This document shows positions 1-61,942 of a DNA stretch of 61,942 nt, one piece after another (positions within the stretch are counted from its first letter, which is position 1; every line of letters starts with the position of its first letter). Source of the DNA: Burkholderiales bacterium (GTDB lineage: Bacteria; Pseudomonadota; Gammaproteobacteria; Burkholderiales; Burkholderiaceae_E); contig SYIM01000028.1 in the NCBI GenBank assembly GCA_005798775.1, positions 1 through 61,942 on the forward strand, read 5' to 3'. A model generated the notes under the pieces. That model had not been told where the DNA came from. It did not search any database and saw only the letters and a list, made by a program, of their open reading frames with translations. A program made the position numbers and the translations under genes.

Positions 1-1260
1 GATCAGCAGGGCATCAGATTCCAGCATATTGATGCCGTCCGATCCGCGCACCACTACCGAAAGTACGCCCACTGATGTTTCAATCGCATTCACCGCGAGG
101 CTCAGGCTGTTTCCAGACAGCAGACCAAAGCCCTTGCCAGCGTCCACGCGCAAGCCCTGCGCGACGATATCGACGGTCGTGTCGTCGACCCCGGCGGTGA
201 CGGTGTCGCTGTCAATCACCGAACCGGACGTGGTGATCGCGAGATTACCGGCACTTGCAGTGATTACGCCGATTGCAACCTGATCCCCTGCCCCGTCGCC
301 AGCAATGATTCTGATATCACCGTTTACAGTCTCAAGCGTGGCATCGGCCGCCATAAGCACACTGCCCGCCGAAGCGCGCAAATCAATGCTCCCCGTCTGT
401 GTGGTCGCTACGTTGACGCCCGCCTGCAGGCGGACGGACTCCGCCGCACTCAGCGTAATGTGACCACGCGTGCTCTGCACATCGGCGTTCGATTCAACAA
501 TGATCTCGGCGCCAGCACCCATCGCTTGGATCAGAATATTGCCCGCTCCGTGTGCCACCACAGCGGCATCCGGGTCGAGATCAGAGGCTGCCGTCCCTTC
601 ACGCAGCGTGATTGAACCGTTGGTGGTGCGGATCACGACGCTGCCGTTCGAACCGTTGATCGCGTCGGTGACCACGTCGCTTTGGGTGAATTCGCTCGCC
701 GACTCCGACAGTCCGGTGCTAAGGACCGCATACACCTGAATCGCCTGCTGGGTATCCACCAGGCTGACCACATTGCCAATGATGAGTTGGTCGGCTTCAA
801 GCAGATTCAAGCCATCGGAGCCGCGAACCCGAGCGGACAGGGTTTCAACCTGAGTCTCAATCGCGTTGACCGGGAGCGACAGGCTGTTACCAGTGAGCAG
901 ACCCGCACCCTTGCCGGCGGAGATCATCAGCCCGCGCGCCGTCAAATCAATCGTTGAATCGTCGACGGTGCTGGTCACTGTGTCGCTGTCGAGAACCAAA
1001 CCCGTGGACACCAGCCCCACGTTCGCGTTGCTTGCCATGACACGGCCAATGGTGAGTTGGTCGGACACATCGTTACCAGCGCGCAGCAGGATGTCGCCGT
1101 TGACTGACGAAACCAGCGCATCGGCCGCCATCGTGAGGTTACCGGTACGGGCCGCCAAATGCACCGATCCAGCGCCGGTTGTAGCGATCGTCGTACCGGC
1201 GCCAGCCGCCACAGTGCGGCTCGCAGTTAGAGTGATATGGCCAGTGGACCCAGTCACGCC
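1..1260 (-). repeat. Class II beta-helix units, one complete and one cut by the window edge
   Basis: Residues about 20,228-20,647. One complete unit (about 1,260-500) and the start of another (about 500-1) read GHITLTASRTV, MAADALVSSVNGDILLRAG, DQLTIGRVMASNAN, LDSDTVTS, GAGLLTGNSLSLPVNAIET, and GSDGLNLLEADQLIIGNVVS. The same class occurs once at 12.54-11.84 kb. The reading frame stays open at base 1 within a GSDGINMLESDAL rung, so the protein continues to the left. Confidence 0.8.
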
Positions 1261-4200: not shown

Positions 4201-7200
4201 GGCATTGGCCGGGCCACCACTGACCGTCAGCAGGACCGTCAGGCTCTCATCGCCACTACCCAACGCGTTACCGAACCGCAGTTCACCGTTGGTGGGCCGG
4301 GTGGTGAAGCTTGCAGGCAAGGCGAGATTGGGTGATGCAAGCGCTGTTGCGCCACCACTGGAACCGGTCGCAAGTCCGGGGAGGGACACCAGGACGTTAC
4401 CGCTGCCGTGGGCACTGATGGCAGTGTCATCGGCCGATGCAGTGCCGTCGTTGAGGGTCATGGATCCAGCAACGGTGCGAAGCACGATCGAGCCATCCGC
4501 ACCGGTGGTCTTCACATCCGATTGCAGGGTGTCGGTGAGCGTGGAGCCCGCAACGGTGCCTTCAGAGCGCACGCGGTTCACGGTGACCGTGACGTCATCG
4601 ATGACAAGGTCGCTCGCCTCGAGCAACCAGATGCTGCCACCCGCCGCACGCGCGCTCAGGCGTCCGACCGAGGTCTCGAGGTGATCAACCGCCTCACCGA
4701 CGCTGATGCCGGCCGACAGCCTGAGTTGTGCGCTGCTGATGTCGTGATCGGCATCATTGAGGCTCGCAGTCCCGCTGACAACCAGCGCGTCGGAATCGAA
4801 GATCGATCCCGTCGCAGCGGAGATGCTGACCTTGCCATCGGCAAGCTCAATATCGCCCACGGTGACATTGGTTTTCGCGAGTAACCGGGCGCTGGAAGCT
4901 GCACCAGTGCTCGACAGGACGCTCGCCGCACTCTGGAAAATCTCGCCTTCGCGGGCCTCGATATCGATGCTGCCGCCGGAGACCGTGCGTACGTCGGCCG
5001 CACCCGACAGCGTGACATTGCGGCTCGACACGATGCTGATGCTGCCGCCGGCACTCACGATGTCAGCCGAAGCGACAATGTCATTAGTGGTGGTGAAGGT
5101 GAGGACCACTGCCTTGGAGGTGACTGCCGAGCGAATCGTGCCACCGGCGTCAATGCTTTGCGCTGTGACCACCAGCCCGTACGGCGTCGCCGACGAGGCG
5201 CCGCTGAAGACCATCCGGTTGGCGACATTCAGGTAGTCAGAGATGTCCTTCGCCGCACCGGTGAGCGTGATTCGCTGCGTGCCCGACCCGGCCACCGCGA
5301 CGCCCTCGGCGGTACCGTTCCCAAGCGACGTGGTGAGCGTCCCACCGCTCACCGACAGGACGACGGTCAGCGCCTGCGTGCCGTCACCCACGGCACCCTG
5401 CATCCGGATTTCCCCGGAGTACACGCCAGCGTTTGCATTGGTCGCCGAGAAGCTCGCCGGTACGGTGAGCGTGGGCAGCGCCAGCGGCGCCGTGAGCGTG
5501 GTGAGGGTGGCGTGGGCAGTGGATGCGCCCTGCACCACATTGTCGGCCAGGGCCTGGACGGTGGCGGTGAGCCGATAGGGTGTCGCCGAAGCCGCGCCAT
5601 TGAACCGGACGCGATCAGCCGTGTTGAGATAAGTGCTGATCGCCGCTGCGGTACCGGTCAGCACAAGCTGCGATGAGCCAGATCCCGAGGCCGTCACGCC
5701 ATCGACAAGGGTGTTGCCTGCGGCACTCGTGAGCGTCGGCGCTGCACCGCTCGGACCCGCATCAACCGACATCACGACACGGACCGCAGTGGTGGCACTG
5801 CCGGTCAGGTCGGCGATCCGGATGCTGCCATTGACGGCCGAGGCGGCAAAGTTCGCGGGCAGATTGAGCGTTGGCGCCGCCAGCAGGTTGGCACTGCCGC
5901 CGATGTTCGAGAGAACGCTGGTAAGCGCCGCCTGTGCCGTTCGCGCTGAGCGGACAACGCCCGCTGTCACGCTCTGCACCGTGGCGGTCAGCGTGTAGCT
6001 GGTGTTGGAGGCTTCACCGCTGAACAACACGTTACCCGCTGAATTCAGGAAGCTGCTGATTGCGGTCGCGGTGCCGGTCAGTGTGAGGGCATTCGTGCCA
6101 GAACCCGCGACCGAAATGGCAGAGACGAGCGCTGGCGTTGAAAGTGTGGGTGCGGGCGACGGGCTCGCGGGGCCGCCGCTCAGCATGAGGAGAACCGTCA
6201 CAGAGGCTATGCCGGTTCCAGCCAGGTTGGCCAGGCGGAGCTCGCCACTCACGGACGGCACCGACAGGCTCGAAGCGAGATTGAGGGTGGGCGCGGCCGC
6301 CAGCTGAGCGCTGCCGGTCGTGGCCGGATTGCCGGAGGCTATCGTGGTGAGGGTTGCGGTTGACGATACCGCCGACCGGATCGTTGCGCCGTCGCGGCTC
6401 TGCGCCGTGACGTTCAGCGCGTATGCAGTGGTGGATGCCGGTCCGTTGAACAGAATGCGCTCGGCAACATTCACATAGTTACTGATCGAAACGGCTGTTC
6501 CAGTCAGCGTGAGCGTGCCGGAGTCATTGCCTGCAATCGTCACCCCCTCGCTCGTCCCGTTACCGAGGGCGCTCGAGAGCTTGGGTACAGCACCGCTCGG
6601 TCCACCGCTGACTGTCATGATCACCGTCAGCGTGTCAGTGGTGCTGGTCCCCACCAGACCACCGGTGAGCGTCGGCGTGGCGGGCAGCGTCACCCGGATC
6701 GAGCCGTTAGCCGCGAGCGTCGTGATACTCGCCGGGAGGTTGAGGGTGGGCGCTCCAAGCAGCGAGGATGTACCGCTCGCGCCCGTGATGAGCTGCACGC
6801 TGGTGAGCGTGGCCAGCGCAGTGCGGGCCGAACGGACCACGCCTGCGGTGAGGCTCTGCACCGTTGCGCTGAGCGTGTAGGCGGTGCTCGACGCCTGACC
6901 GTTGAAGTGCACCCGTCCCGCGGTGTTCAGATAGCTGCTGACCGACGTTGCCGAACCGGTCAGCGTCAGCGTGGCTGTGCCAGCCCCTGTAACCGTGACG
7001 CCCGAGACCGTACCCGAGGTGGACAGGGTGGGGGCCGGCGTCGCGCCACCGGGGCCGCCGCTTAACGACAGCAGAACGGTCACGCTGTCGTTGCCGGTGC
7101 CAACCGCATTGGCGATCCGGATCTCGCCGCTTCCCGACAAAGCGGTAAAGCTCGCCGGCATATTGAGCGTGAGCGGCGCAAACGGCTGGGCTGTGCCGCT

Positions 7201-10200
7201 GGTCGCCGCAGTACCGGTGGCCACGCTGGTGAGCGTCGCCACCGATGAAGCCGCCGAGCGAACCGTCATGCCGTCGCGGCTCTGCGCGGTCACCGTGAGC
7301 GCGTAGCTGGTGGTGGAAGCGGTGCCGTTGAAGCGGATGCGGTCTGCGACGTTTACGAAGGTGCTGACCGCCGAGGCGGTGCCTGTCAGTGTCAGCGTGT
7401 TGGTATCAGTTCCAATGACCGTGACGCCGTCTGCCGAGCCATTTCCAAGGGAACTTGAGAGCTTGGGCGTGGCGCCGCTGGGGCCGCCGCTCACAGCCAT
7501 CACAACGGTCACCGTGTCGGTGGCGCTGCTTCCGGCCAGATTCGCAATCTGAATGCGACCATTGGTGGACAAGGTCGTGATGTTGGACGGCAGGTTCAGC
7601 GTCGGTGCAGTCGCGGCTGTAGCCGTGCCGCTGGAACCGGTCGTGACGAGTTGAACGTTAGCGGTGGCGGCCGCGCGGACGGTGTCGCCGTTTAGCGACT
7701 GCGCGCTGACCGTTAGCGTGTAGGGCGTAGCGGTCGCTGCTCCGTTGAACAGAATACGGTTCGCCGTATTGAGGTAAGCGCTGAGACTTGTCGCGGTTCC
7801 GGTCAGCGTGAGGCGGTTGCTGTCGGAACCACTCACGGTGACGGTGCCCGAGGACACATTGCCCTCGGAACTCGACAGCTTCGGCGTGGCACCGGCGGGG
7901 CCGCCACTGACCGACAAAACCACGGTGAGCGCCTGATTGCCCGAGCCGAGGGCATTTACGATCCGGATTTCGCCGTTTGCGGGCAGCGCAGTGATCGTGC
8001 CGGGCAGGCTGAGAGCAGGTGCCGAGAGGAGGACTGCAGACGAACTGGTCACAAGCTGGACGCTCGTCAGCGACGCCGATGCGGTTGCCGCAGCGCGGAC
8101 CACGCCATCGCTGCCCAAACGTTGGGCCGTGACCTTGAGGTCGTACGCAGTGGCCGACGCCAGCCCGTTAAAGCGGACGCCGGTGCTACCGAGGTACGCG
8201 TTGAGATCTGCAGCCAGACCGGTAAGCGAGAGCACGCCGGTGCCGGAGCCAGCCACCGTGACACCCGCAACGGTGGCGGCGGGCGCGAGCCACGGGCTCA
8301 CACCCGACGGTCCACCGGCCACCGACAGCACCAGGGTCAGTGTTTCCGCGGTGGGCGTTGCACCCAACACATTCGCGATCTGGATATTACCGCCACTCGC
8401 GAGCGCGGTCAGGCTGGCAGGTACTGCGAGGGTGGGAGCGGTCGACGGGGTGGCGGCTCCAGCCGATGCCGTCGGTCCCAGTTGAGCGCTGGTGAGCGTT
8501 GCCTGCGCCGTCCGGGCAAGCTGGACGACTGGCCCGTTCAGGCTTTGAACCGTGGCACTGAGCGCATAGGGCGTAGAGGACGCCTGACCATCAAAGCGCA
8601 CAACGCCGGTTGAGCCGAGGTAGGCGGAAAGCGCAGCGGCGGTGCCGCTAAGCGTGAGGGTATTGGTGCCCGAGCCGCTCGCGACCGTGACGGCGGATGA
8701 ACCACTTGCCGACAGCACCGGCGCGGGATTCGGACTTGCCGGGCCACCGCTCACCGCCAGCACCACGGTCAGCGGCTCGGTGCCGCTGCCGAACCCGTCG
8801 GTGAATTTCACCTCGCCACTCGCGGACAGCGCGATCAGGCTCGCGGGCATGTTCAGCGTCGGCATCGCCGTTGCCGCGGCACTGCCCACCGCGCCGGTTT
8901 CCACGCTCGCAAGTGTCGATACAGCAGAACGCGCAGAGCGCACGACACCGGCGGTCGCGCTCTGCACCGTGGTGGTGAGCGCATACGGCGTTGAAGACGC
9001 CTGACCGTTGAAGCGCACGCCGCCATTCGAGTTGAGATAGGCAGAAAGCGCTGTCGCCGTTCCGCTCAGTGTCAGCGTTCCGGTTCCCGAACCGCTGGCC
9101 GTTACGCCACTGCCCCCCGCCGCAACCAGTGTCGGTGCGGTTGTGGGACTGGCGGGGCCACCGCTGACCGCCATGACAATCGACAGGGCCTCAGCGCTAT
9201 CACCCACTGCGTTGGCAAAGCGAACATCGCCGTTGACTGACAGCGCCGACAGGCCCGCCGGCACGTTCAGGGCGAGGGGCGAGAAGGCCTGCGCAACCCC
9301 GCTCGCTGCGGCACTGCCTGACAAGGTCGCCGTGAGCAGTGTTTGCGCGGTGGTCGCGGCTACGACGACAACGCCGCTCACGCGCTGCGCGGTGGCGGTG
9401 AGCGTGTAGGCCGTCGCAGACACCGTCCCATTGAACAGAACCCGGTTGGCTGCCGTGAGGTAGGCACTGACCGCAGAGGCCGTCCCGGTGAGGGTAAGCG
9501 TCGCGGTGCCGCTGCCGCTCGCGGTCACCTCGTTCGACAGGCCGTTTCCGGAGGCACTCGACAGTGTGGGCGTTGATCCGGAAGGTCCACCGCGAACCGC
9601 CAGCACGACGGTCACGATGTCGGTACCTGTTCCTACGGCGTTTGAGAACCGCAGCTCGCCGTTGATGGCCGGTGTTGTGAATGACGAGGGAACGTTGAGC
9701 GTTGGAGTGGCTGCCAGCGTGGCCGTACCCGATGGCCCGGTGGTCACGAGCGCGATCTGTGAAGTTGCGGCGGCAGTTACTCGGCTGCCGGTTACCGACT
9801 GCGCCGTCACCGCGAGCGTGTAGGGCGTTGCCGACCCGCTACTGGTGAACAGGATACGGTTCGCGTCATCGAGATAATCGCTGAGATCAGCCGCGCTACC
9901 CTTCAAGGTCAGTCGGCTCGTGCCCGACCCCTCGACCACGACCGCACTTCCAGTGGGCGCCACGCTGGTGAGGCTCACCGTGGAATCCGCCGCGCCACCC
10001 CCAACCGCCAGCACGACGGTAATCGGACCACTGCCCGACACTGAATTGGCGGCAAACCGGATCTCGCCATCGGCCGGCAGTGCCGTAATCGTGGCCGGCA
10101 CGGCCAGCGTGGGCGCTGTGCTGACAGTGGCTGTGCCCGCCGCGCCGAGCAGTACGCTGGTCACCGCCGCGTCCGCCGTCACAGACGCCTGGACCACCGC

Positions 10201-49200: not shown

Positions 49201-52200
49201 AACCATCAGGTCGGTCGCGCTCACCTCAAATGCATCAAGGCCCACAAACGCAACCGATCCGGCGCGAGCCTTCACGGTGGTGAACTCACGCGGTGCTGCG
49301 CCCGCGGTCTTGGGAAGTTCGGAGACCAGCGCCACGCCAAAATCAACGTCGGTGAGCCGCAACCCCATTGCGCCGTCGGTGCCGCCGCCGACACCTGCGA
49401 AGGCATCGATGCCGGCACCGCCGATGGTCAGAAGCCGCCCGCGGATCTCGGCGGGCGCCTTCGCCTTGGCGGGATCTTCGGACACCACACCATCGTTGAG
49501 ATAGAAGGACTCGTCGCGCGCTTCGATCGCGAAGCCGCCCGCCGCCTGAAAGAAACCGAACGCATCAAGCGTGAGATTCGCAGAGGCCCTCAGGAGTCGA
49601 CCCTGCGCACCGTCCATGGTGAGCAGCGTCTGACTGCTGAGGCCGGTCTTGACCGACATCGCGGTGCGACGGCCCGCAGCGGGGTTAGCCGCGTCCTTGA
49701 GGCCATAGTCAACCACCGAGTCGTTGATCTTGCCCGCGCGATTGACCTCAACGGACAGCGTATCGCCAGCAAGCGTCAGCCCCTCGACACCACCGAAGGC
49801 CGCGCTTGCCGCCTTCGCCTGGAGGCTGGTCCAGCTTCGGGTCTCGTCGGTGGCATGCGAGTACATCACGAGTCCGAACTCGGCGCCAGCCAGTTCGAAG
49901 CCGATCGCGTCATCGGTGCCGCCATTGACCCCCACGAACGCGCGGAGGTCTGAGGCACCGAGCTTGAGCGCCTGTGCGCTGACTGTGCTGCCATCGGCCA
50001 GCGTGATCGAGACCGGCGTGCGGGCACGCTCAAAGGCAAATTCGCCCGACACCTGAACGAAGCCGAAGATGTCGAGCGTCAGCCGACCGCTTGCCTCGAG
50101 CAGATCGCCGCGTTTGCCGTCGAGCGTGAGCGTCAGATCCGACGTGGGCCCGGTCAGCACCGTGACCGCGGTCCGACGGCTACCGTCGGTTTTGCCGCTA
50201 TCGAGACTGTAATCGACCACGGTTCCGTCAGCGGTTGCCGCGCGGTTCACCGCCACCGCGAGGGTATCGACCTGAACCGTCAGGCCGTCGATGCCTCCGA
50301 ATCCAGCACTTTCCACCGTAGCCTGCAGCGTGCTCCACTTGCGCGGAACCGCCTGACTGTTTGCGGCGAGTCGCTCGGTGTAAAGCGCAAGGCCCAGGTC
50401 AACGCCGGAGAGCGCCACGCCCACTGCATTGGCTTTGCCGCCATTGACCCCGGCAAAAGCCGCCAGGCCGCTGCCGCCTATGAGCAGCATGTCAACGTTT
50501 ACCGGCGCGGCCGATTCATCTTTATCGGTCGTTAACGGGTTATCAGCCAGATTGACCTGGCCCGATTTTTTCTCAATACCGAATCCGCCAGAGGCCTGAA
50601 CAAACCCGAACACATCAAGCGTCAGATTGCCTCGAGCACGCAACAACTGCCCTTCGGAAGCATCCATCGACAGCGTGAGGCTGGACGGCTCCACCCGGGT
50701 GCCAGTCTGAACCTCGAGACCGCGCGCTTTGAAGTCGACCAAAGTTCCGTCGGCCGCCTGTCGATTCACTTCCACGGTGAGCGTATCGACAGCAAGCGTG
50801 AGCCCCGCTACACCCGTAAAGCTGGCCGAGGTGGCCGCCGCCTGGAAACCGGTCCAGGACCGAGCCTGCGTACCCCCCGGCTCGAGTCCGGTGAGCCTTT
50901 CACTCAGGATTGCAAGCCCGAACTCTGCCCCGGTGAGGGACAGACCAATCGCGCCTGCTTTAAGCGCACCGCTGTTGTCATAGCCCCCACCCACGCCCAC
51001 GAAGGCGTTGACACTGCTCGCGCCAATTCGGAGGGCATCGACCCGAACTGCACTTGCGGGCTTGACGAGTTTGCCGTCGGCATCGTACTGCGCGTCACCC
51101 AGCAGAACCTCGTCCTCGCCCTTGTCGAGCGCGAAGTTGCCGTTGAGCGCAACGAACCCATAGATGTCGATCGTGAGCTTGGCGCTCGCCTGCAAGAGCT
51201 CGCCACGCGCGCCATCGAGTGTGAGGGTGAAGGTATCGGTGGTCTTCGCGCCGTTGCGTACATCAAGCTCGGTGCGCCGTTTGGTGGTGGCAGAATCGAC
51301 ACTGTAGTCAACGACCAGCGTGCGGATCGGCTTGGCCGGCGTGACTTTCGTGTAGCCCGTCTCGATGATCGAAACTGTTGGCGAGTAGGTTCTGGGGACT
51401 TCGGCAACGGTCACCGCCGCCACATCGGCGCCAAGCAGCGAGCCACCAAATTCGAGATCAAGCGCCTTGCCGTTCCAGAACTTGAGCGTAGCAGTCGCAC
51501 TGAACGAAGCGCCTGACGCGGTCGTGACCTTTGCGCTCAACGCGGTCATGGCGGCATTGATAACGGACTGTGCCTCAGCCTGCGTCATGGACGACTCAAG
51601 GGCCGCGCTGGTGGCCGATTGCCCACTGTGCGTGAGACTGAGCGTATAGCCGATATCGGAGGCGGGGCTGGTAAGCCGCACCGCTTGAATTTCTCCAACC
51701 CGCACTGCGCCTTGCGTCACGCTATAGGGTGCGACCCGTCCCAGGGACAGCGTGTCGAAGTGGCTGGTGATATCAGCCACATCCACTTTAGCGAGCGTGC
51801 CCCGGAACTTGACCAGGAACGCCTGGTTGCGGCCGACCGTGTCAGCTGTGTCGATGTCAACCTGAACATTGCCCGCACCGAAGAGGCCATCAAGCGCGCT
51901 TTGCAGGTTGGTGCGAAGCGTGGCCGGCGTGCTGCTGTAGGCAACCGCCGTGCTGAAGCGCTCGCCAGCGGGATCTTCAACCGAGATCTTGAAGCTGCCC
52001 GAGGGTAGCTGCGGATCGACTGACACTGCGGCCGCACTGAGCGGTTGGATGTTGACGCCGGTGAGTGCTCCGCTAAAGGTGACGCGATAGGTATCGGCGT
52101 TAGCAGCCGTGACGGTTAACGTCCCGATCGAACCCAGTGTGGTCGTGCCGCTGATCGCAGCGCGGACAGCATCCTGGAGGACCTGCGCTGTTGCACCGAA

Positions 52201-55200: not shown

Positions 55201-58200
55201 GTCGACTGCAGCAGCGCCGGCGGTAACTTCCACCACGCTGGCTGTGACTTGCGGAACGCGCGCCTGCGCCGACAGACCAGAGAAATCCAGACCCGCGAGT
55301 GTGCCGCCAAATACGACAGTAAAGCCCGCGTCTTCGTCGCCCGAGACAGTGATGTCGCCTGCGGTGACCGACCGGCCCGTAGCCCGCACGACAGCTTCGA
55401 GCTGCGTACGAACCGCGGTGCGCGTCGCCTCAGCGGTGCGGCCCGCCGCCAGTTCCACGCTCGCCTGCTGCCCCGAGAGCGATAGCACCAGCGTACCCTG
55501 CGCAATATCGGTATCAAGCTTAAGACGCGTCGGGCTCAACACCAGCGGCTGCCCCTGAAGCCCGTCCTGAACCACGGTCACTGTTGCGCTGGCCGCTGGA
55601 GGCTGCGCCGACCGATCACCGGTCACGGTGATTCGCTGCAGTTCATTGACGCCAGCGATCGGCGCCCGGTCCTGGCGCACCACACCGCCGTCCATGAAGA
55701 AGACGTCGTAGGTTCCTTCGCGAAGCGGCGTGGTGAAAGTGATTTGCGAAATTTCCGTGAGGCCCGCTCCAGCCTCCACCGGCGTGGTGACCGTCACGCT
55801 CACTGGGGGCGGATCGGCCCTGAGCGACTGCACCACCACCTGTTTCACCTCATCGGTGCCGGCAAACGGAAGGGTGCTGGTGGTAACCGTCGAGGTGGCC
55901 GCAGTCGGCGTCGCAGTGGCAGTGATGTCAGTGACCGGTTTACCGGCCAGCGCATTGATGAATTCGACGGTATAGCCGTCGTAGAGGTTTCCCTCAATCG
56001 CGACATTGCCCGTGCCCACCCCAGCAAGCGATTCGAATGCCGCGGTGAGTCGCTTGATGAACTCGGTGTTGGTCAGCCCCTCAAGGATGGTCGCGCTGGA
56101 AGTGCTGGCCGCATGCGTCTGACCATTGGAGCCCGCCGCACGACTAAGGGTGAGCGTGCCCGACAGATCAACCGGGATCTTCAGCGACAGCTTGGTGTTG
56201 AACTTTGTCACCACCTCCGGCTCGGCCGGCAGCGTGATCCCGCGGTTGATATTGAGTAGAACCTGCTCAGCTTTCGCCGTCAGGCCGTCGATGCCTTTTA
56301 ACTCTGCGCTGGCAGCGGTTGCCTGCAGCGTTGTAAAGCTTCGCTTGGGGTCGTCAGGGTCACTGATGAGCGCCAGGCCGAAGTTGACCTGGCCGAGCGA
56401 AAGCCCCTGGGCGCCAGCCTTGAGCACGCCGGTGGTGTCGTCATAGCCACCGTTCACACCGGCAAAAGCATCGACCTGACTCCCACCAATGGTGATGAGT
56501 TGAGCCTTATCAATCGACGAGCCATCAGACAGCGTCACCGCCTGCGAGCGGGACTCCACGGCGAAGCCACCCTTTACGCTCACAAAGCCGAACAGGTCGA
56601 TGTCGAGATGACCGGCCGCTTTCAGCACACGACCTTCTGCACCATCCACGGACAGCCGGGTAGAACTGGCGGCACCGGTCTTGATCGAAAGTTCGGTACG
56701 CCGCGGCCCAGTAGGCTGGGCCGTGTTCACCAGCGAGTAATCAACCACCGGATCGGTAGCCTTGCTCGCCCGATTGATCGTCACCGAAAGCGTGTCCGCC
56801 TTGGCGGTTAGACCTTCGATACCCACAAATGACACTGCAGAGGCGCTTGCCTCAAGCGTTGTCCACTTGCGGCCGGCGTCCGCTCGATCGGTGATGAGCG
56901 CCAAGCCAAAGTCAGCACCGCCCAGCGCGAGGCCAATGCGGTCTTCGGTCGAACCGTTCACGCCCACAAATGCAGAGACGCCGCCGCCACCAACCTTCAA
57001 GACCGTGGCCTGAACCTGCGTGGCGGGCGACACTTCGACGCCGCTCGCGTTCACCACCCGGTCAGCGAGCGCGACAGTCTGAGTGGATTGATCGAAACTC
57101 AGGAACCCTTCGAGCTGAGCAAATCCGAAAACATCCAGCTTGAAATCTGCAGATGCACGTGTGAGTTCGCCCAACGCACCGTCGCTGTCGATCGTCACCG
57201 TTTGCGTTGGCCCGGCAAGCACTTCGAGTTGCTGCGCAGAGTAATCAATGACCGTGTCGGGATTGCCTCCGGTGCCTTTGATGCCTCGGTTGACCTCCAC
57301 TGTGAGGCCCCTTGCACGCGCTTCAAGGCCATCAATCCCGACAAACTCGACGCTTCCCGCCTGCGCTTTGAGTGTGGTGAATTGACGGGCGGGAGCCCCG
57401 ACGGCTGCCGGTTTCTCGCTCACCATTACGAGACCGAAATCGACCCCTTCGAGCTTGAGGCCCATGGCATTCGAGCTGCCGCCGTTGACCCCCGCGAAGG
57501 CATCAATGCCAGCTCCACCAATGGTGAGCAGTCGTGCGTTGACTTTGGTGGGTGCTTTGGCCTTGGTGGGATCTTCCGAGACCACGCCATCATTGAGCCA
57601 AACCGTCTCGTCACGGCGCTCGATCGCAAACGCGCCGCTCGCCTGGAAGAACCCAAACACGTCAAGCTGCAGGTTGCCGCTTGCCCGGAGCAGATCACCT
57701 TGCGCCCCCGACATACTGAGGTCGAGCGTGCTCGTGAGTCCGGTGGTGACGGTGAGCGCCGTGCGCCGTGGGCTGGTCTGATCGGCAGGGTCAGCACGAC
57801 TGAAGTCGATCACCGCATCGCCCGCCTTACCGGCACGATTGACTTCGATGCTGAGCGTATCGCCGGCAGCCACCAGGCCACTTATCCCCACCAACGCTGC
57901 GGATTGCGCCTTCGCCTGCAGGCTGGTCCAGCTGCGCGTCGCGTCATTGACGTCGGATAGCAGTGCGAGGCCGAACTCAACCCCGGAGAGCTGGAGGCCC
58001 ATCGCGTTGGCGGTTCCACCGTTAACCCCCGCAAACGCGCGGAGGTTCGATGCGCCCACTTTTAAGGCGCTGGCCCGGCGCTCCGTACCATCCGCCAGGG
58101 TGACGGTGATCGGCGCGCTCGCGCGCTCGAAAGCAAATTCGCCTGACAGCTGCACAAAACCGAAGACGTCCAGATCGACCTTGCCGCGAGCCTCAAGCAG

Positions 58201-61200
58201 GTCGCCGCGCTTACCATCCAGCGTGAGTTCCAGATCGCTGGTCGGACCGGTCAGGACCTTGACCGCAGTAAGCCGTGTGCCATCGGTCTTGGTGGCATCC
58301 AGACTGTAGTCGACGACCGTGCCATCGGTGGCCTGTCGGTTGACACTAACGGTAAGGTTGGCGACCGATGCCGTGAGGCCCTCAATGCCGCCGAGCTGCG
58401 CCGATTCGACTGAAGCCTGGAGCGAGGTCCACTTGCGCGGCGTGCCGCCCGTTCCAGTCAGCCGCTCGGTGAACAGGGCAAGGCCCATATCGACGCCCGA
58501 CATGGAGAGTCCGAGCGCATTGGCCTGACCGCCGTTAACGCCTGCAAAGGCCGACAGTCCGCTTGCGCCCACCAGCAGCATGTCAACGTTGACGGCTGTG
58601 GCCGACTCATCGATGGACTGGGTGGAAGACTTATCAGCAACGCGGATGCTGCCCGTCTTTTTCTCGATGCCAAACGCGCCGCTCGCCTGGACAAAGCCAA
58701 AGACATCCAACTTGAGGTTGCCACGCGCGCGGAGCAATGCACCCTCTGAGCCATCAAGGGACAACGTGAGGCTGGAAGGCGCATCGAAGGTGCCGGTGTC
58801 AATGGTGTAGGCGCGCGCCTTGTAATCGACCAGGGTCGCGTCTGCAGCCGGGCGATTGACCTCGACGGTGAGCGTGTCGGCGCTGAGCGTGAGTCCGTCT
58901 ATGCCAGTGAGCCCTGCCGAGCCTGCCTGCGCCTGTAGCGAAGTCCAGCGACGTGCCTGGGTGCCGGCGGACTCTTGTCCGCTTAACTTTTCGCCGAGCA
59001 CCGCCAGGCCGAAATCAACCTCTGAAAGCTGCAGCCCGATTGCGCCGGGCTTGAGATCGCCCTGCGCATCAAACCCGCCGCCAACCCCCGCGAAAGCGTA
59101 GACATCGCTCGCGCCAATATTGAGTGCCGCCACCTTCACGACACTCGCCGGACGCGTCGTGACGCCCTGCGCATCAACCACCGCGTCATTCAGGACAATT
59201 TCGCGATCGCTCTTGTCGATCGCAAAATTACCGCGTACCGCGAAGAAACCGAAGACATCGATATTCAAGAACGCACTGGCCCGCAGCAAGTCGCCACGCG
59301 AGCCATCGAGTGTGAGTGCATGGTTGGTCGAGGGACCCGTTGGCACTGCGATAACGGTTTTACGCGGTTTGGTCAGATCCTCTGGGTCGCTGTATCCGTA
59401 ATCAACGACTGTCTTGTCGCTTGCAGCCCGGTTGACCTCAACCGAGAGGGACTGGGCGCTCAGCACGAGCCCATCGATCCCGCCGAACGCGGCACTCGTC
59501 GCCGTTGCCTGAGCGGTGGTCCATCGCCGCGCAGTAGCGGTGCTGTTGTTCGCAAGCTTTTCGGTGTACAGCGCAACACCGAGTTCGACGCCAGTCAGGC
59601 GTAACCCAGTCTCGTCTGCACGACCGCCATTGATACCTGCGAAGCCTCTGAGGCCTGTGCCACCGATGAGCAGCATGTCAACATCGACCAGATTGGCCGA
59701 CTCATCGATCGTCGCCGTGACCGGGTTGTCAGTGACGCGGACGCGGCCCGCTTTCTTCACGATGCCGAAGCCGCCATCGGCCTGAACGAAGCCAAATAGG
59801 TCAAGCTTCAGGTTGCCGGTTGCACGCGTCAGCTCGCCCTCGGCAGCATTGAGCTTGAGATCGAGCGTGGTCGTCGGACCGGTCTTGACCGATCGCACAG
59901 TTTTGTTCGCGCCATAGTCAACAACGGTCTTGTCGCTGGCAGCGCGGTTGACCTCGACGGAAAGCGAGGTGACGCTGACCGTGAGATCGTCTACACCGGT
60001 AAAGCTGGCGCTGGCGACGTTGGCTTGAGCGCTCGTCCACTTCTTGGGGGTGGTCGAGCCGGTGACGCGCTCGGTGTAAAGCGCAAGACCCAGTGTGACG
60101 CCCGACAGGCTGACGCCAGTGGCGTTCGCTGTGCCGCCGTTGACCCCGATGAAGCCGGTTAGGCTTGAGCCGCCGATTAGTAGTTCGTCGACTGATACGG
60201 TCGTACCGGTCGCCGCCGTCCCCGTATTGACGATGATCGTCTGGTTGGTCCGCTTCTCAATCCCGAAGCCGCCCTCGGCTTGCAGGAAGCCGAATACATC
60301 AAGCTTGATGGTGCCGGTGGCCCGCGTCAGGATGCCGTCAGAAGCCTTCAGCGTCAGTTCAGTGGTGGTGCTCGGGCCGGTCTTCACCGAACGCACGGTC
60401 TTGCCCGTGCCGTAGTCCACCAGAGTCTGATCGCTTGCCGCGCGATTCACTTCCACAGTGAGTGAGGTCACCGTGACTGACAGGTCGCTGATTCCGGTGA
60501 AGTTTGCGCTCGCAACACTCGCTTGCGCGCTCGTCCACTTCTTCGCCGTGGCCGAGCCCGTGACACGCTCGGTGTAGAGCGCTAGACCCAGATTCACTCC
60601 GGTGAGGCTCAGCCCGGTGGCGTTCGCTGTGCCGCCGCCCATACCGATGAAGCCGGTGAGACCTGCGCCACCGATTAGCAGTTCGTCGACTGATACGGTG
60701 GTGCCGGTCGCTGCCGTCCCTGTAGTGACGGTGATCGTCTGGTTAGTCCGCTTCTCAATACCGAAGCTGCCCTCGGCTTGCAGGAAGCCGAAGACGTCGA
60801 GTTTCAGGTTGCCGGTGGCACGCGTCAGGATGCCGTCGGAGGCCTTGAGCGTCAGTTCAGTGGTGGTGCTCGGGCCCGTCTTCACCGAACGCACGGTCTT
60901 GCCCGTGCCGTAGTCCACCAGGGTCTGATCGCTTGCCGCGCGATTCACTTCCACGGTGAGTGAGGTCACCGTGACTGACAGGTCACTGATCCCGGTGAAG
61001 CTCGCGCTCGCAACGCTTGCCTGCGCGCTCGTCCATTTCTTCGCGGTCGCGCTACCCGTCACCTGCTCGGTGTAGAGCGCTAGACCCAGGTTCACTCCGG
61101 TGAGGCTCAGGCCGGTCGCGTTCGCCGTGCCGCCGCCCATCCCGATAAAGCCAGTGAGGCTCGAGCCACCGATCAACAGTTCGTCGACCCCAACAGTAGT

Positions 61201-61942
61201 GCCGGTGGCAGCCGTCCCCGTGTTGACGGTAATCGTCTGGTTCGTGCGCTTCTCAATCCCGAAACTGCCTTCAGCTTGCAGGAAGCCGAAGACGTCGACT
61301 TTGATGGTGCCGGTGGCACGCGTCAGGATGCCGTCGGAGGCCTTGAGCGTCAGTTCGGTGGTGCTGCTCGGGCCCGTCTTCACCGATCGGACGGTCTTAG
61401 CCGTGCCGTAGTCCACCAGGGTCTGATCGCTTGCCGCGCGATTCACTTCCACGGTGAGTGAGGTCACCGTGACTGACAGGTCGCTGATTCCGGTGAAGCT
61501 CGCACTCGCAACGCTTGCCTGCGCGCTCGTCCATTTCTTCGCGGTCGCGCTACCCGTCACCCGCTCGGTGTAGAGCGCTAGACCCAGGTTCACTCCGGTC
61601 AGGCTCAGCCCGGTCGCGTTCGCCGTGCCACCGCCCATCCCGATGAAGCCGGTGAGACCTGCGCCACCGATTAGCAGTTCGTCGACTGATACGGTCGTAC
61701 CGGTCGCAGCCGTCCCCGTGTTGACCGTGATCGTCTGGTTCGTGCGCTTCTCAATCCCGAAGCTACCCTCGGCTCGCGTGAATCCGAAAAGATCAAGAGT
61801 CAGCGTGCCGCTAGCTTCAAGCAACGCCCCTTTGCTGCCTGCCAGATCGAGCGTGATCTCAGTGCCCGGGCCCGTGGAGAGACCCTTGCTGTTGGCTCCC
61901 GCAAAGTCCAGCACCGATCCGTCGGCCGCCGCGCGATTAATA
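1..61942 (-). CDS. Giant repeat-rich surface/adhesin-like protein, partial at both ends
   Basis: One reading frame, codons starting at 61,941 and descending in threes, runs to base 1 without a stop: 20,647 complete codons. Translation by eye is continuous and protein-like throughout, in one phase, with domain motifs from edge to edge. In protein order it holds A/B module arrays, calcium-loop A modules, an amphipathic beta region, RTX nonapeptides, an FHA-like beta-helix with inserted islands, and Ig-like cassettes. No signal peptide, transmembrane segment or secretion signal is visible, because both termini lie outside. Few cysteines and a Gly/Ala/Ser/Thr/Asp-rich composition fit an exported structural adhesin. 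Giant proteins of this architecture are known in Gram-negative bacteria, several of them with an N-terminal LEPR-XLL motif, which cannot be checked here. The frame is certain; the adhesin role is inferred from domain types; partners and ligand are unknown. Confidence 0.95.
1261..3534 (-). repeat. Three tandem class I beta-helix units without Ig insertion
   Basis: Residues about 19,470-20,227. Units at about 3,534-2,810, 2,810-2,050 and 2,050-1,270 are highly alike: TSGNxSVIAKGSVxFAADADIRT, HASSVLxSTGA, VTVGDIxLxDGKVSITAV, GSVLDADALV, VNHLETTAGTLSA, IWVLEADAL, VNRVLADG and QSDIRTTGxNGSIVLRT. At the ISAHGSGNVLIQA rung, where other units carry Ig-like cassettes, these pass straight on to the next unit. 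Confidence 0.82.
3535..4390 (-). repeat. Cassette of two Ig-like modules
   Basis: Residues about 19,185-19,469. Two modules have FTTRPTNGELRF / VSANNGEIRFAN starts and GRVRFTGQE (near 4,060) and DAVRFNGTA (near 3,630) turns, clearly homologous to the 14-module cassette. It follows ISAHGSGNVL, the same helix rung after which the large cassette begins, and is followed by DLVANADISTTSGNVSV, where the helix resumes. Confidence 0.85.
4391..5109 (-). repeat. Class I beta-helix unit between the two Ig-like cassettes
   Basis: Residues about 18,945-19,184. A single ~240-aa unit, DIVASADIVSAGGSISIV through WLLEASDLVI to DGTASADDTAISAHGSGNVL. It has the full set of rungs seen in the neighbouring units and is flanked on both sides by Ig-like modules, so the helix appears to continue through both cassettes. 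Confidence 0.8.
5110..10985 (-). repeat. Cassette of 14 tandem Ig-like modules
   Basis: Residues about 16,986-18,944. Each module is about 130-155 aa: LxLPASxTxLxxxGEIRxAN, a TVVLxVSGGP strand, GVTVSGSGTxxLTLTGTA, a YLNxAxRIxFNG turn, YxLTVTAQS and a TAxATL end strand. The RI/RVxFNG turn occurs near 10,690, 10,265, 9,850, 9,430, 9,010, 8,590, 8,170, 7,745, 7,325, 6,905, 6,445, 6,020, 5,600 and 5,210. The LTLTGTxxxLxxxL signature is typical of Ig-like stalk domains in large RTX/VCBS-type adhesins. The cassette interrupts a beta-helix unit rather than following it. Confidence 0.88.
10990..15599 (-). repeat. About six ~240-aa beta-helix units (E-motif units)
   Basis: Residues about 15,448-16,984. 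Each unit of about 700-850 bases has the same skeleton: GNxSVLAxGSxTF, GSIDVxAxAG, an IRxxAG rung, an NITLG or VTVGDI rung, GSILDxD, LRLSAGxAxG, LETxVxTLSAxA, GGIxLxExxxL and a VNRV strand, then GSIVIxxxxGxLTLNDGTA. Units run about 15.5-14.7, 14.7-14.0, 14.0-13.25, 13.25-12.54, 12.54-11.84 and 11.84-10.99 kb. The fifth belongs to a second class (DQVSIG, AGLLAGNSL, GSDGLNLRE) seen again at the left edge. Structural adhesin rod. Confidence 0.75.
15600..17299 (-). other. FHA-like beta-helix, irregular transition segment
   Basis: Residues about 14,881-15,447. Rungs such as GTITVNAGGDTGSVTVERAI and GSVVMRAGGNIGLAMLNAAS continue the helix. Toward 15.6 kb they begin to adopt the ~240-aa super-periodicity that dominates the left end (LFITENSALTI, later WVLEADAL). 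No inserted domain was noticed. Confidence 0.65.
19590..19880 (-). other. Inserted small domain with GDSLAHIADRLATEI helix
   Basis: Residues about 14,021-14,118. Within beta-helix text there is a segment TYTVTITRPT, then TFTYVAKTGDS, then a predicted helix LAHIADRLATEI, then VITVGNG. The strand-strand-helix-strand order resembles the B modules and is repeated more loosely at 23,340-23,620 and 21,300-21,600. It appears to be a small alpha/beta domain looped out of the helix. Function not recognised. Confidence 0.6.
20960..21600 (-). other. Non-helical island in the beta-helix
   Basis: Residues about 13,448-13,661. The text changes from repetitive rungs to ITLPSSGISGTTFQYTHKSG, a VDALGQALVTSINAV helix, YYTASYVNGSGKVSVAADD, and then a NWKNLFASGVPVLTYNGK segment with an acidic/Lys tail (KKASDKGSDSDTG). 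This looks like an inserted alpha/beta domain of the same general kind as at 19,590-19,880, followed by a unique linker. No function is assigned. Confidence 0.55.
25090..27165 (-). other. Aromatic-rich, non-repetitive island interrupting the beta-helix
   Basis: Residues about 11,592-12,284. After one degenerate LGY-like unit (near 26,650-26,900: SFENLDDNQRQ then a GY), the sequence becomes rich in Trp, Tyr, Phe, His, Lys and Arg. Examples are WDRIVHWGHVNND, YLNFYNSEWPVDDY, NWLWLNLAA and YDWTSQWHDIYDQRIRLSY. Local codon and base use is visibly less GC-biased than that of the flanks. This looks like one or two globular domains set on the shaft, a candidate binding or enzymatic head. I recognise no family. 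A DRDGQRQFD loop near 26,115 could bind calcium. Confidence 0.65.
27170..31090 (-). other. FHA-like beta-helix, main shaft segment 1
   Basis: Residues about 10,284-11,590. Rungs such as GGTVEVGGSLRASQLIELTGG, VTITAGQRVAIDS, GKIILEGSVLGHDAVNLYAG and IVLRAGTNVVAGETSVYTLS are characteristic of haemagglutinin or two-partner-secretion passenger beta-helices. Internal periodicity is irregular (about 20-25 aa per rung), with many GSL, GxI and GTV turns. Two WTG-containing spurs occur (near 28,250 and 28,010). I saw no catalytic residues or autotransporter domain. Role inferred: extended surface filament. Confidence 0.75.
31094..31135 (-). other. EF-hand-like loop DENNDGTFDSIE
   Basis: Residues about 10,270-10,282. 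Asp1, Asn3, Asp5, Gly6, Phe8 and Glu12 match an EF-hand calcium loop. It lies just C-terminal to the LGY array and just before the beta-helix resumes, following a TDGTNKYVVYAK strand. It is isolated, with no recognised paired EF hand, so calcium binding is inferred. Confidence 0.65.
31330..32890 (-). repeat. Array of about eight ~60-aa 'LGY' repeats, unfamiliar family
   Basis: Residues about 9,684-10,204. A unit reads SFDSLTxxQKxxVARxLGY, then a Tyr/Phe-rich strand ending FYK, then TSFxxGxxxDYxxxxIxWG and a Pro linker. Clear units are centred near 32,830, 32,710, 32,500, 32,320, 32,180, 31,970, 31,790 and 31,570, with a worn ninth near 31,350. Examples are ASFDSLTAHQKKVVARALGY (about 31,960-32,020) and ASFDSLTDAQKQTVARNLGY. 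The QKxxVARxLGY half looks helical, unlike everything around it. Two of the few cysteines in the window occur here (LGC near 32,300 and SAC near 31,670). Function unknown; possibly a binding domain set on the shaft. Confidence 0.8.
32895..34589 (-). other. FHA-like beta-helix, first segment after the RTX block
   Basis: Residues about 9,118-9,682. Short repeating rungs with Gly, Ala, Ser and Asp, such as SIDVSNAFLRAPGGHFNLEA and GSVTSGDGVTLSYG, give the filamentous-haemagglutinin look of right-handed beta-helices. Phrases like IRLIADDIDFRSGDNAV and TLTIEAKSSS recur. The segment ends at the first LGY repeat. No receptor motif such as RGD was noticed. Probably an adhesin shaft. Confidence 0.7.
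34590..35120 (-). other. RTX (hemolysin-type) calcium-binding repeat block
   Basis: Residues about 8,941-9,118. Visible nonapeptide-like units include GKGNDTILF, GEGNDNVGV, RGGAGHDNLYGGND, YGDDGNDKYFGGDG, GAGKDTILV, AGGNDTIEA and, after a short gap, AGGAGYDKVVLDP. GGxGxDxxx repeats fold as a calcium-dependent parallel beta-roll. In RTX proteins they usually lie near the C-terminus, before a type I secretion signal. Here they sit in mid-protein, exactly between the modular half and the beta-helix half. The first units are good matches and the last is isolated. Export by type I secretion is possible but unproven. Confidence 0.85.
35130..37015 (-). other. Amphipathic long-beta-strand region without clear repeats
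   Basis: Residues about 8,310-8,938. The sequence is dominated by alternating hydrophobic and charged residues in long runs, with Gly turns: for example IEFKGEISIIDNVFEVRV and LKASLSGYIRSNGEFLLKG (about 35,580-35,720). The pattern resembles a beta-helix or the beta-groove repeats of AsmA/TamB-like proteins, but this is a visual analogy only. It shares DLGxVxxLxG-type phrases with neighbouring A modules and may be a degenerate continuation of them. Just upstream of the RTX block a Trp-containing segment (AWSWGSPP, about 35,330-35,360) closes the region. Confidence 0.6.
37018..37147 (-). other. Cluster of three or four GNGxLDxGED calcium-binding repeats
   Basis: Residues about 8,266-8,308. The translation reads NGNGELDNGEDRGN, then MLDPGEDLNGNKRLDAGED, then KGNGILDP: short tandem Asp/Asn/Gly loops of dockerin or thrombospondin-3 style. 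The same loop type appears at 38,404-38,511 and 37,960-38,100. The cluster marks the end of recognisable A modules and the start of the amphipathic region, so it probably forms a calcium-rigidified joint. Confidence 0.75.
37150..42580 (-). repeat. Divergent A modules carrying calcium-type loops
   Basis: Residues about 6,455-8,264. About ten or more degenerate A modules of around 490-550 bases. Three in a row (near 42,250, 41,760 and 41,270) carry FVGY(A/T)D in place of FAGVNGG, then a (Q)QSxxLYGFG segment. Further on, the same loop holds acidic calcium-binding sequences: DTNGDGVVNTKD (40,696-40,731), DSDEDGSLGDE (about 40,130-40,161), LDEGED/LDPGED (38,404-38,511), LDPGED/LDLSED (37,960-38,100) and SNGDERIDEGDD (37,651-37,695). 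Two of the only four cysteines I found in the window lie near 39,500 and 39,580. Likely a Ca2+-stabilised extracellular beta-rich rod. Confidence 0.75.
40696..40731 (-). other. EF-hand-type calcium loop DTNGDGVVNTKD
   Basis: Residues about 7,071-7,082. The 12-residue loop has Asp at 1, Asn at 3, Asp at 5, Gly at 6, Val at 8 and Asp at 12, which matches the canonical EF-hand or dockerin loop. It sits between the FVGVDGPY and VGLIV strands of an A module. Calcium binding is established for this loop pattern; binding here is inferred. Confidence 0.8.
42580..45080 (-). repeat. Array A3: five A modules with NQA instead of NRA
   Basis: Residues about 5,621-6,454. Modules of about 480-535 bases carry VLVNQADG/VxINQA marks near 44,545, 44,050, 43,570, 43,075 and 42,590. 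The core motifs LDMFGFFQV, AFAGIxGxT, LGLxLxxVEFGL and RKWTxLxAxAxSVxFVG are kept. Modules two to four closely resemble each other, suggesting more recent amplification. The block starts directly after the VTPAKP linker, so it may be the start of a third super-repeat that was not followed by a B array. Confidence 0.85.
45080..48189 (-). repeat. Array B2: about 10 B modules
   Basis: Residues about 4,585-5,620. Same module plan as B1; a clear example begins PSGTFTLSFGGQTTGPI at about 46,920. Modules align in order with B1, including FFVDGGVVRxDRA, NERYxxTF...GFKxYFVD, APPAKGSGxY/F and NIRDGMIAFNT signatures. The array closes with a VTPAKPARTVVVDY linker near 45,052-45,093, the same linker as at the end of B1. 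No enzyme motif is seen; probably a stalk or ligand-presenting segment. Confidence 0.85.
48190..51340 (-). repeat. Array A2: six A modules, second copy of the distal part of A1
   Basis: Residues about 3,535-4,584. Six modules carry NR/NL marks near 50,765, 50,240, 49,735, 49,190, 48,700 and 48,210. Their lengths (about 555, 525, 505, 545, 490, 500 bases) track those of the last six modules of A1 (about 550, 515, 503, 547, 515, 530). Sequence idiosyncrasies also match in order: LNDGVVSEDP near 49,490 and 57,590, RGLEVQTGT-like text at the second module, and a final INRGIxLP just before the B array. The array is therefore part of a duplicated A+B super-repeat. Structural role inferred. Confidence 0.88.
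51340..56219 (-). repeat. Array B1: about 16 B modules of the GTFxLxxxG...FxGxLAG type
   Basis: Residues about 1,911-3,534. Modules of roughly 85-100 aa follow a recurrent plan: GSFTLSLxxxGKTYTT, a strand, AxVRxAL helix, IGAGNVxVxG, YxVxFxGxLAG, then a strand and a linker. This repeat type is familiar from giant bacterial surface proteins and is expected to be a small alpha/beta or beta-sandwich domain. The order of modules matches array B2 at 45,080-48,189, except that B1 has about 1.8 kb of extra modules (roughly 53,820-55,590). The array ends with the linker VTPAKPIRTLVVDY (51,308-51,340), which leads into the next A array. No catalytic motif is seen. Confidence 0.85.
56220..61942 (-). repeat. 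Array A1: about 11 tandem A modules (~165-190 aa each)
   Basis: Residues about 1-1,910 of the visible product. Each module follows the order VxDY, TGPxS, LxLDGxxGxLLxAxG, LDVFGFxQAxGxFxIEK, a variable VxVDxLxIGG strand, FAGVNGG, GLxLxGVxFGLAL, KWTxLQA, GLTVxxxxLxVEVNRAA. The NRA/NRG mark recurs near 61,930, 61,434, 60,936, 60,437, 59,945, 59,425, 58,850, 58,335, 57,832, 57,285, 56,770 and 56,240. Spacing is thus 490-575 bases. Alternating hydrophobic and polar residues indicate beta strands. The four right-most copies are close to identical in DNA. I do not recognise a named family; function is probably structural spacing. Confidence 0.9.

Follow-up and report, generated by a model that had tools for sequence, protein, structure and literature searches.

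A stop-free 62-kb contig as the middle of one giant bacterial gene and its probable link to LEPR-XLL proteins and an export-type gene set

Background

The closest described relatives of the protein considered here are the LEPR-XLL proteins (NCBIfam NF012209, 'LEPR-8K'), which share with it great repetitive length and, as judged from its orthologues, the N-terminal LEPR-XLL motif. Published work on this family describes a Vibrio LEPR-XLL giant of about 8,000 aa with C-terminal RTX domains, and a Limnohabitans LEPR-XLL protein that is the closest relative of transcripts from Lake Baikal, suggesting lake expression of genes of this kind. The present protein, with at least 20,647 aa and three repeat families, has the length and repetitiveness of a LEPR-XLL giant, but it is more than twice as long as the Vibrio example so described and no RTX array was found in it. 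Giant size and repeats are also features of Cag_0614 (36,805 aa) and Cag_0616 (20,646 aa) of Chlorobium chlorochromatii, which have been described as haemagglutinin/adhesin-like proteins of the RTX family; by that description they differ from the present protein in phylum and in their RTX membership. The near-equal length of Cag_0616 is a coincidence, because the gene studied here is cut at both ends. Omnitrophota and other PVC bacteria are reported to have predicted giants that reach 85,800 aa and contain transmembrane helices as well as carbohydrate-degradation domains; the likeness lies in the single giant ORFs of uncultured bacteria, whereas Pfam detects no carbohydrate-degradation domain in the window protein.

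Among secretion systems, the loci described below resemble type I secretion in that genes for HlyD adaptors and a TolC-like OEP accompany the cargo gene, but differ from it in having a SecA-like protein and an M50-HlyD fusion instead of an ABC ATPase, none of which was found among the scanned cassette genes of G000:C46 and G001:C4. They resemble accessory SecA2 systems in that an additional SecA of reduced length adjoins a possible cargo, and differ in their HlyD and OEP neighbours, in sub-cut-off scores against SecA2 models and in an alignment to SecA that extends to about residue 650.

Results and discussion

A single frame without stops

The window, that is, the whole stretch of 61,942 nucleotides analysed, is the entire contig C278 of a draft genome (G000; 3.54 Mb in 350 contigs, 78.5% complete); G001, G002, G003 and G004 denote the relatives with which it was compared, G004 being a separately assembled second genome of the same genus. 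The original prediction of a single stop-free 62-kb frame is borne out by a six-frame stop count: translation of the full window gives 0 stops in the 20,647 codons of the minus-strand frame that runs from base 61,941 to base 1, and 197, 442, 1259, 687 and 681 stops in the other five frames. At the base composition of the window about 614 stops are expected, and the natural logarithm of the probability of finding none is approximately -623. The frame had also been described as open at both ends, which agrees with both window ends being assembly breaks, because the window is an entire contig of a draft genome; both contig ends fall inside repeats. The translated fragment has a mass of 2.09 MDa and a pI of 4.7, so that the predicted size of at least about 2 MDa holds as a conservative lower bound, but its placement near the top of known bacterial protein sizes does not, as larger bacterial proteins are on record. 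The predicted risk of spurious antisense genes is justified, since stop-free runs of up to 578 codons occur on the plus strand (window 1-61,942) and could be called as genes by gene finders; one antisense frame holds just 197 stops in 20,647 codons.

Relatives and selection

Comparison with relatives confirms that the window is the central part of a single, genuine bacterial gene encoding a huge and repetitive protein. Four contigs of G004 match its coding strand, with nucleotide identities of 93.4% (C505), 91.8% (C444), 85.4-88.4% (C160) and 93.0% (C303). They are collinear with window bases 1,440-59,135, except that matching pieces of C160 are separated by two gaps of about 640 and 860 bases, and each of the four is open end to end. 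Exact overlaps of 141 bases join C505 to C444 and C444 to C160, as would be expected of assembly neighbours, and the overlap between C160 and C303 is of 15 bases only. At the protein level, the open contig G004:C444 is 94.5% identical to window residues 5,973-11,240 and the open contig G001:C156 is 85% identical to residues 8,016-11,071. G002:C96 is likewise an open contig, of 10,922 codons. G004:C449, open throughout its 47,035 bases (15,678 codons) and about 40% identical to window residues 5,688-11,640, is on its sequence a paralogue of the window gene.

The dN/dS ratio, obtained for 17,993 of the 20,647 codons, lies between 0.06 and 0.14 in 18 of 20 bins and is 0.20 for all 20 bins together. 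Values of 0.56 and 0.30 in the two bins spanning residues 12,001-14,000 are probably due to misalignment, with the single BLAST alignment out of register, because the DNA there matches at about 85%. The purifying ratios together with the open relatives indicate that selection maintains the frame in more than one species, as anticipated by the claim of strong selection on one giant protein.

Composition and repeat anatomy

The features of the window, with residues numbered along the translated fragment, are as follows.

1..61941, minus strand: interior of one giant gene, open at both ends (0 stops; orthologous open contigs in G004 and G001; dN/dS 0.06-0.14 in 18 of 20 bins)
56098..61941, minus strand (residues 1-1948): first array of repeat family A, with units about 166 aa long (profile matches)
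48097..51327, minus strand (residues 3539-4615): repeat family A, second array (profile matches)
37384..45168, minus strand (residues 5592-8186): repeat family A, third, more diverged array (profile matches, sequence)
34912..34989, minus strand (residues 8985-9010): short RTX-like Gly/Asp stretch with two nonapeptide-type motifs only (motif scan)
31492..32874, minus strand (residues about 9690-10150): repeated unit 'L..Q...VA..LGY' (sequence; strict matches at 9806, 9979 and 10045)
10900..20352, minus strand (residues 13,864-17,014): first array of repeat family B, with units about 240 aa long, putatively beta-helix-like (profile matches)
4843..10752, minus strand (residues 17,064-19,033): repeat family C, units of about 140 aa, Ser/Thr-rich (profile matches, composition)
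1..4830, minus strand (residues 19,038-20,647): second array of repeat family B, which includes C units and is truncated at the contig end (profile matches)

The protein contains only four cysteines in 20,647 residues and is rich in Ala, Gly, Thr, Val and Ser. Profile matches define three repeat families across it, of which family A accounts for 33 matches within residues 1-8,186. A tandem array of 498-base units is evident in the DNA at 59,765-61,810, within the first family A array, and a long internal duplication renders much of residues 3600-5680 40-70% identical to parts of 900-3520. The third A array includes EF-hand-like, Asp-rich loops of calcium type near residue 7261 (a strict motif match) and at 7945-7995. 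The two nonapeptide-type motifs are the only ones in 20,647 aa, and no Pfam RTX family is matched. The 'L..Q...VA..LGY' region (window 31,492-32,874, minus strand) also has Trp-Gly motifs, differs from the surrounding beta repeats and has no Pfam match.

The original prediction that domain motifs stay in one phase stands as far as the single phase is concerned, but no Pfam or NCBIfam domain scores above its cut-off. Scans with both libraries in 5,000-residue blocks over residues 1-20,000 of the 20,647 gave sub-threshold matches only (Usp, HtaA), and ten 1,000-residue pieces covering residues 7,001-17,000 matched no Pfam family at E <= 0.01. No Pfam family was matched by more than three of 49 repeat A members; matches confined to single members were as strong as 1e-5 (CBM_AftD) and 1.6e-5 (Dockerin_1).

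Two family A units were modelled at a pLDDT of 96 as nearly all strand, with strands of up to 21 residues, which we read as a predicted antiparallel meander. Foldseek searches of repeat A against the PDB found no convincing match (best E 0.0075, TM 0.22), a second structural comparison returned porin- and receptor-like sheets with Z up to 10.7 at an rmsd of 10.9, and a profile search gave zero matches; the lack of a convincing solved relative does not show that the modelled fold is a new one. One family B unit, from the second array, was modelled at a pLDDT of 94 with strands only. Foldseek found no match for it in the PDB at E <= 0.001, and many of its weak matches are by name beta-helix or beta-solenoid proteins, so that in the models the second half of the protein looks like a beta-helix. 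A profile match of repeat B to a T6SS spike chain (E 0.002) was set aside and read instead as a common beta pattern.

Both ends of the gene

An ORF of 2,386 codons on G004:C516 ends in a sequence 96% identical to window residues 1-183. The neighbouring 166-aa repeats fit this contig almost equally well at the DNA level (87.8, 87.6 and 86.1%), and the gene start is therefore placed as a range, about 1,900-2,200 residues before the window. The ORF starts with the LEPR-XLL motif (NF012209; 34.2 bits against a cut-off of 17), which also scores above the cut-off in G002:C185 (28.3 bits) and G002:C37 (20.8 bits). LEPR-XLL is not matched in the G000 assembly, presumably because the N-terminal part is missing from it. 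No in-frame ATG lies between the preceding stop of the C516 ORF and the LEPR motif, and an in-frame TTG is present. On the 5' side of this ORF are a sensor kinase gene, a NUDIX gene and three nuo-type antiporter genes, a context that is matched in G001 and G002 and, for the kinase only, in G003.

At the other end, contig C46 of G000 opens in repeats of family B, the family of the window's 1..4830 array, and its ORF stops after 3,601 codons with YEYWSDDDELSI. Ends homologous to this C-terminus are present in G004, in G003 and twice in G001. Judging by these sequences, C46 carries the C-terminal part either of the window gene or of a sister gene; its identity with the end of the window gene is not proven, because there are two such C-termini in G001 and paralogues exist. 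For the window protein 20,647 residues is thus a minimum and 22,000-26,000 the likelier length; the total would be about 26,000 if C46 ends the window gene.

An export-type gene set beside the giants

On G000:C46 the giant C-terminus is followed by genes for Lcl_C, a SapC-like protein, HlyD, M50-HlyD, a SecA-like ATPase, SapC, OEP and HlyD. Past this set (L083 3,807-6,527) lies a long ORF with Big_12 and SWM repeats, of 907 codons to the contig end, which is perhaps a further cargo. A second giant, on G001:C4, spans 12,265 codons and is truncated on its N-terminal side; after it come OEP, HlyD, HlyD-GAF, M50-HlyD, SecA-like and SapC genes. G073, a one-contig genome from another family of the class, has a LEPR-XLL ORF of 13,848 codons, after which come SapC, OEP, HlyD, a LEPR-XLL ORF of 3,186 codons, HlyD, M50-HlyD and SecA-like genes, in that order.

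Forty M50-HlyD loci, hand-picked mostly from the stronger matches, were surveyed with all ORFs counted. M50-HlyD itself is present in 40/40, a second HlyD-type ORF in 39/40 and a SecA-like ORF in 26/40, whereas SapC and OEP each attain E 1e-10 in no more than five of the loci. The SecA-like motor is not universal, because 14 of the 40 loci are without such an ORF, one of them (L136) being cut by a contig end. These 14 loci, along with the many M50-HlyD genomes that have no LEPR-XLL match, suggest that two kinds of M50-HlyD system may exist. The loci without a SecA-like ORF (L151-L155, L157-L160 and others) mostly have lower M50 scores.

An acidic tail with 'DDDEL', 'DEDEL' or 'DEDDEL' near the C-terminus, a motif chosen post hoc, occurs in 5 of 39 distinct large ORFs versus 0 of 579 others; the five are the giants of G000:C46 (L056, 10,769-10,804), G001:C147 and G001:C106 and both LEPR-XLL giants of G073:C1.

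Co-occurrence of LEPR-XLL and M50-HlyD

The association was counted in a class sample of 274 genomes, with up to four M50 candidates scored per genome, and in a phylum sample of 398 genomes, which overlaps the class sample and has up to two candidates scored per genome. With LEPR-XLL called at E <= 0.001, M50-HlyD is found in 16/18 LEPR-XLL-positive versus 20/256 negative genomes of the class sample (Fisher p 3e-14), and at the looser E <= 0.05 in 21/34 versus 15/240. The corresponding counts in the phylum sample are 39/40 and 51/358 (p 9e-28). On removal of the class-sample genomes, M50-HlyD remains in 37 of the 38 new positive genomes, which span 21 genera. These p-values are too small, and the association is less independent than they imply, because the genomes are related. 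M50-HlyD in the absence of a LEPR-XLL match (E <= 0.001) thus accounts for 20 class-sample and 51 phylum-sample genomes.

In terms of neighbourhood, M50-HlyD lies no more than 20 kb away on the same contig for 32 of 76 LEPR-XLL ORFs (in 27 of 56 genomes), against about 2/76 expected by chance in a rough estimate from round numbers; it is downstream on the same strand in 21 cases, upstream on the same strand in six and upstream on the opposite strand in five. For the other 44 of the 76 ORFs M50-HlyD is absent within 20 kb on the contig. Taken together, the counts link LEPR-XLL giants strongly to one export-type gene set. Giant LEPR-XLL ORFs are present in the one-contig genomes G073 (13,848 codons) and G318 (14,920 codons), and a LEPR-XLL frame of 19,427 codons was noted in another class of the same phylum (G365:C115:112865, minus strand).

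M50 and SecA-like components

The HExxH motif and a distal Asp, as in M50/site-2 proteases, are present in 45/45 distinct M50 proteins. The Pfam M50 model gives 25.4 bits for the G001:C4 protein, under its cut-off of 27.2, and is not matched by the M50-HlyD protein of G000. The best NCBIfam models for the M50 part are those of daptide (195.8 bits versus a cut-off of 300) and epipeptide (35.9 versus 225) proteases, both below cut-off.

The 27 distinct SecA-like proteins are 573-837 codons long. GxGK[ST], DEAD and GRGTD are found in 27/27 of them and DEVD in 13/13 housekeeping SecAs in one alignment, and two of the SecA-like proteins have Pfam SecA_DEAD, PP_bind and P-loop matches, in agreement with a SecA motor domain. 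When one such protein was aligned with solved SecA the alignment stopped near residue 650, because of which the C-terminal parts of SecA are taken to be missing. SecA2 models give 408, 396, 360 and 321 bits, where their cut-offs are 1085, 725, 930 and 1100, and SecA models likewise score under their cut-offs. In a SecA tree the 13 housekeeping SecAs lie on one side of a branch of length 1.98 with 100/100 support. Two rows tagged as SecA-like by length alone group with housekeeping SecA and look like fragments thereof. The SecA-like protein of G073 groups with that of G000 in a part of the tree where long branches meet; the SecA-like proteins may or may not form one clade.

Proposed export route and its rivals

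We consider it likely that the window lies wholly inside one gene for a LEPR-XLL giant whose product is exported by this gene set as a surface protein. Export by the HlyD/M50-HlyD/SecA-like set is inferred here from gene content and sequence. The basic, LEPR-bearing N-terminus would be recognised in the cytoplasm, and the SecA-like motor would feed the chain into a gate in the inner membrane, formed at or by M50-HlyD, which may also cleave a leader. The HlyD adaptors and the outer-membrane protein would form a duct. Folding of the beta repeats would take place on the outside of the cell, perhaps aided by calcium loops, and the product could be a long surface fibre or coat for contact or adhesion. 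The broader proposal is of a dedicated exporter, present in many lineages of the phylum and built of a truncated SecA-type motor, M50-HlyD, HlyD adaptors and a TolC-like duct, which recognises LEPR-XLL and carries single chains of between 3,000 and over 20,000 residues through the inner and outer membranes; this seems to us evenly poised between right and wrong.

Other routes would account for part of the same observations. The giant might be exported as an RTX/LapA-like adhesin by a conventional type I system composed of ABC ATPase, HlyD and TolC, the SecA/M50 set being unrelated; HlyD and OEP, which are common type I parts, are present, and the Vibrio LEPR-XLL giant is reported to carry C-terminal RTX domains. 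Type I secretion signals are C-terminal, however, whereas the feature common to the proteins discussed here is N-terminal, and with only two RTX-type motifs in the window and no ABC ATPase in the two scanned cassettes we regard this route as rather unlikely. That the M50-HlyD/SecA-like set is a peptide (RiPP-like) maturation system found near the giants by chance is suggested by the daptide and epipeptide protease scores and by the many M50-HlyD genomes that have no LEPR-XLL match, but the presence of M50-HlyD in 39/40 LEPR-XLL genomes of the phylum sample and its downstream, same-strand position for 21/76 LEPR-XLL ORFs make this explanation an unlikely one. We give slightly less credence to two-partner secretion, or a general Sec/autotransporter route, as used by FHA-type beta-helix proteins. 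The modelled beta-helix-like second half, with its weak Foldseek matches (none at E <= 0.001), would suit it, but Pfam finds no TPS/haemagglutination-activity domain, and indeed 0 families at E <= 0.001, in the orthologue's N-terminal 720 residues, NCBIfam matches no family in the final 935 residues of G000:C46, and the scanned neighbours of the giants include HlyD, OEP and SecA-like genes and no match to TpsB.

A different kind of objection is that the long frame arose when the assembly collapsed or mis-joined repeats, or that the gene is in decay; the incomplete draft assembly and the position of the contig ends in repeats leave some room for this. Mis-joined repeats are disfavoured because the collinear G004 contigs are open and the dN/dS is low in 18/20 bins, although the repeat copy number is best read as assembly-based; open contigs also occur in G001 and G002, and the LEPR-XLL ORFs of G073 and G318 stand in one-contig genomes. 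Taken with these observations, an artefact or a decaying gene is very improbable, and we retain the interior of one exported LEPR-XLL giant as the preferred reading.

Novelty and implications

Size alone is not new, since larger bacterial giants have been recorded (36,805 aa, and up to 85,800 aa as predicted). What is new is the occurrence of LEPR-XLL giants together with HlyD adaptors, an M50-HlyD fusion and often a short SecA-like ATPase. Among the literature matches listed, from a search whose scope left out preprints and most subscription papers, no title or abstract opening describes this set.

How bacteria export proteins of at least 10,000 residues is an open question. The gain of the present analysis is the strong link between LEPR-XLL giants and a gene set whose members resemble components of SecA, of site-2 protease and of type I systems. 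The proposed exporter, if true, would explain why the giant has no visible type I or two-partner signal, and the link makes giant export testable by ordinary gene deletions in culturable carriers.
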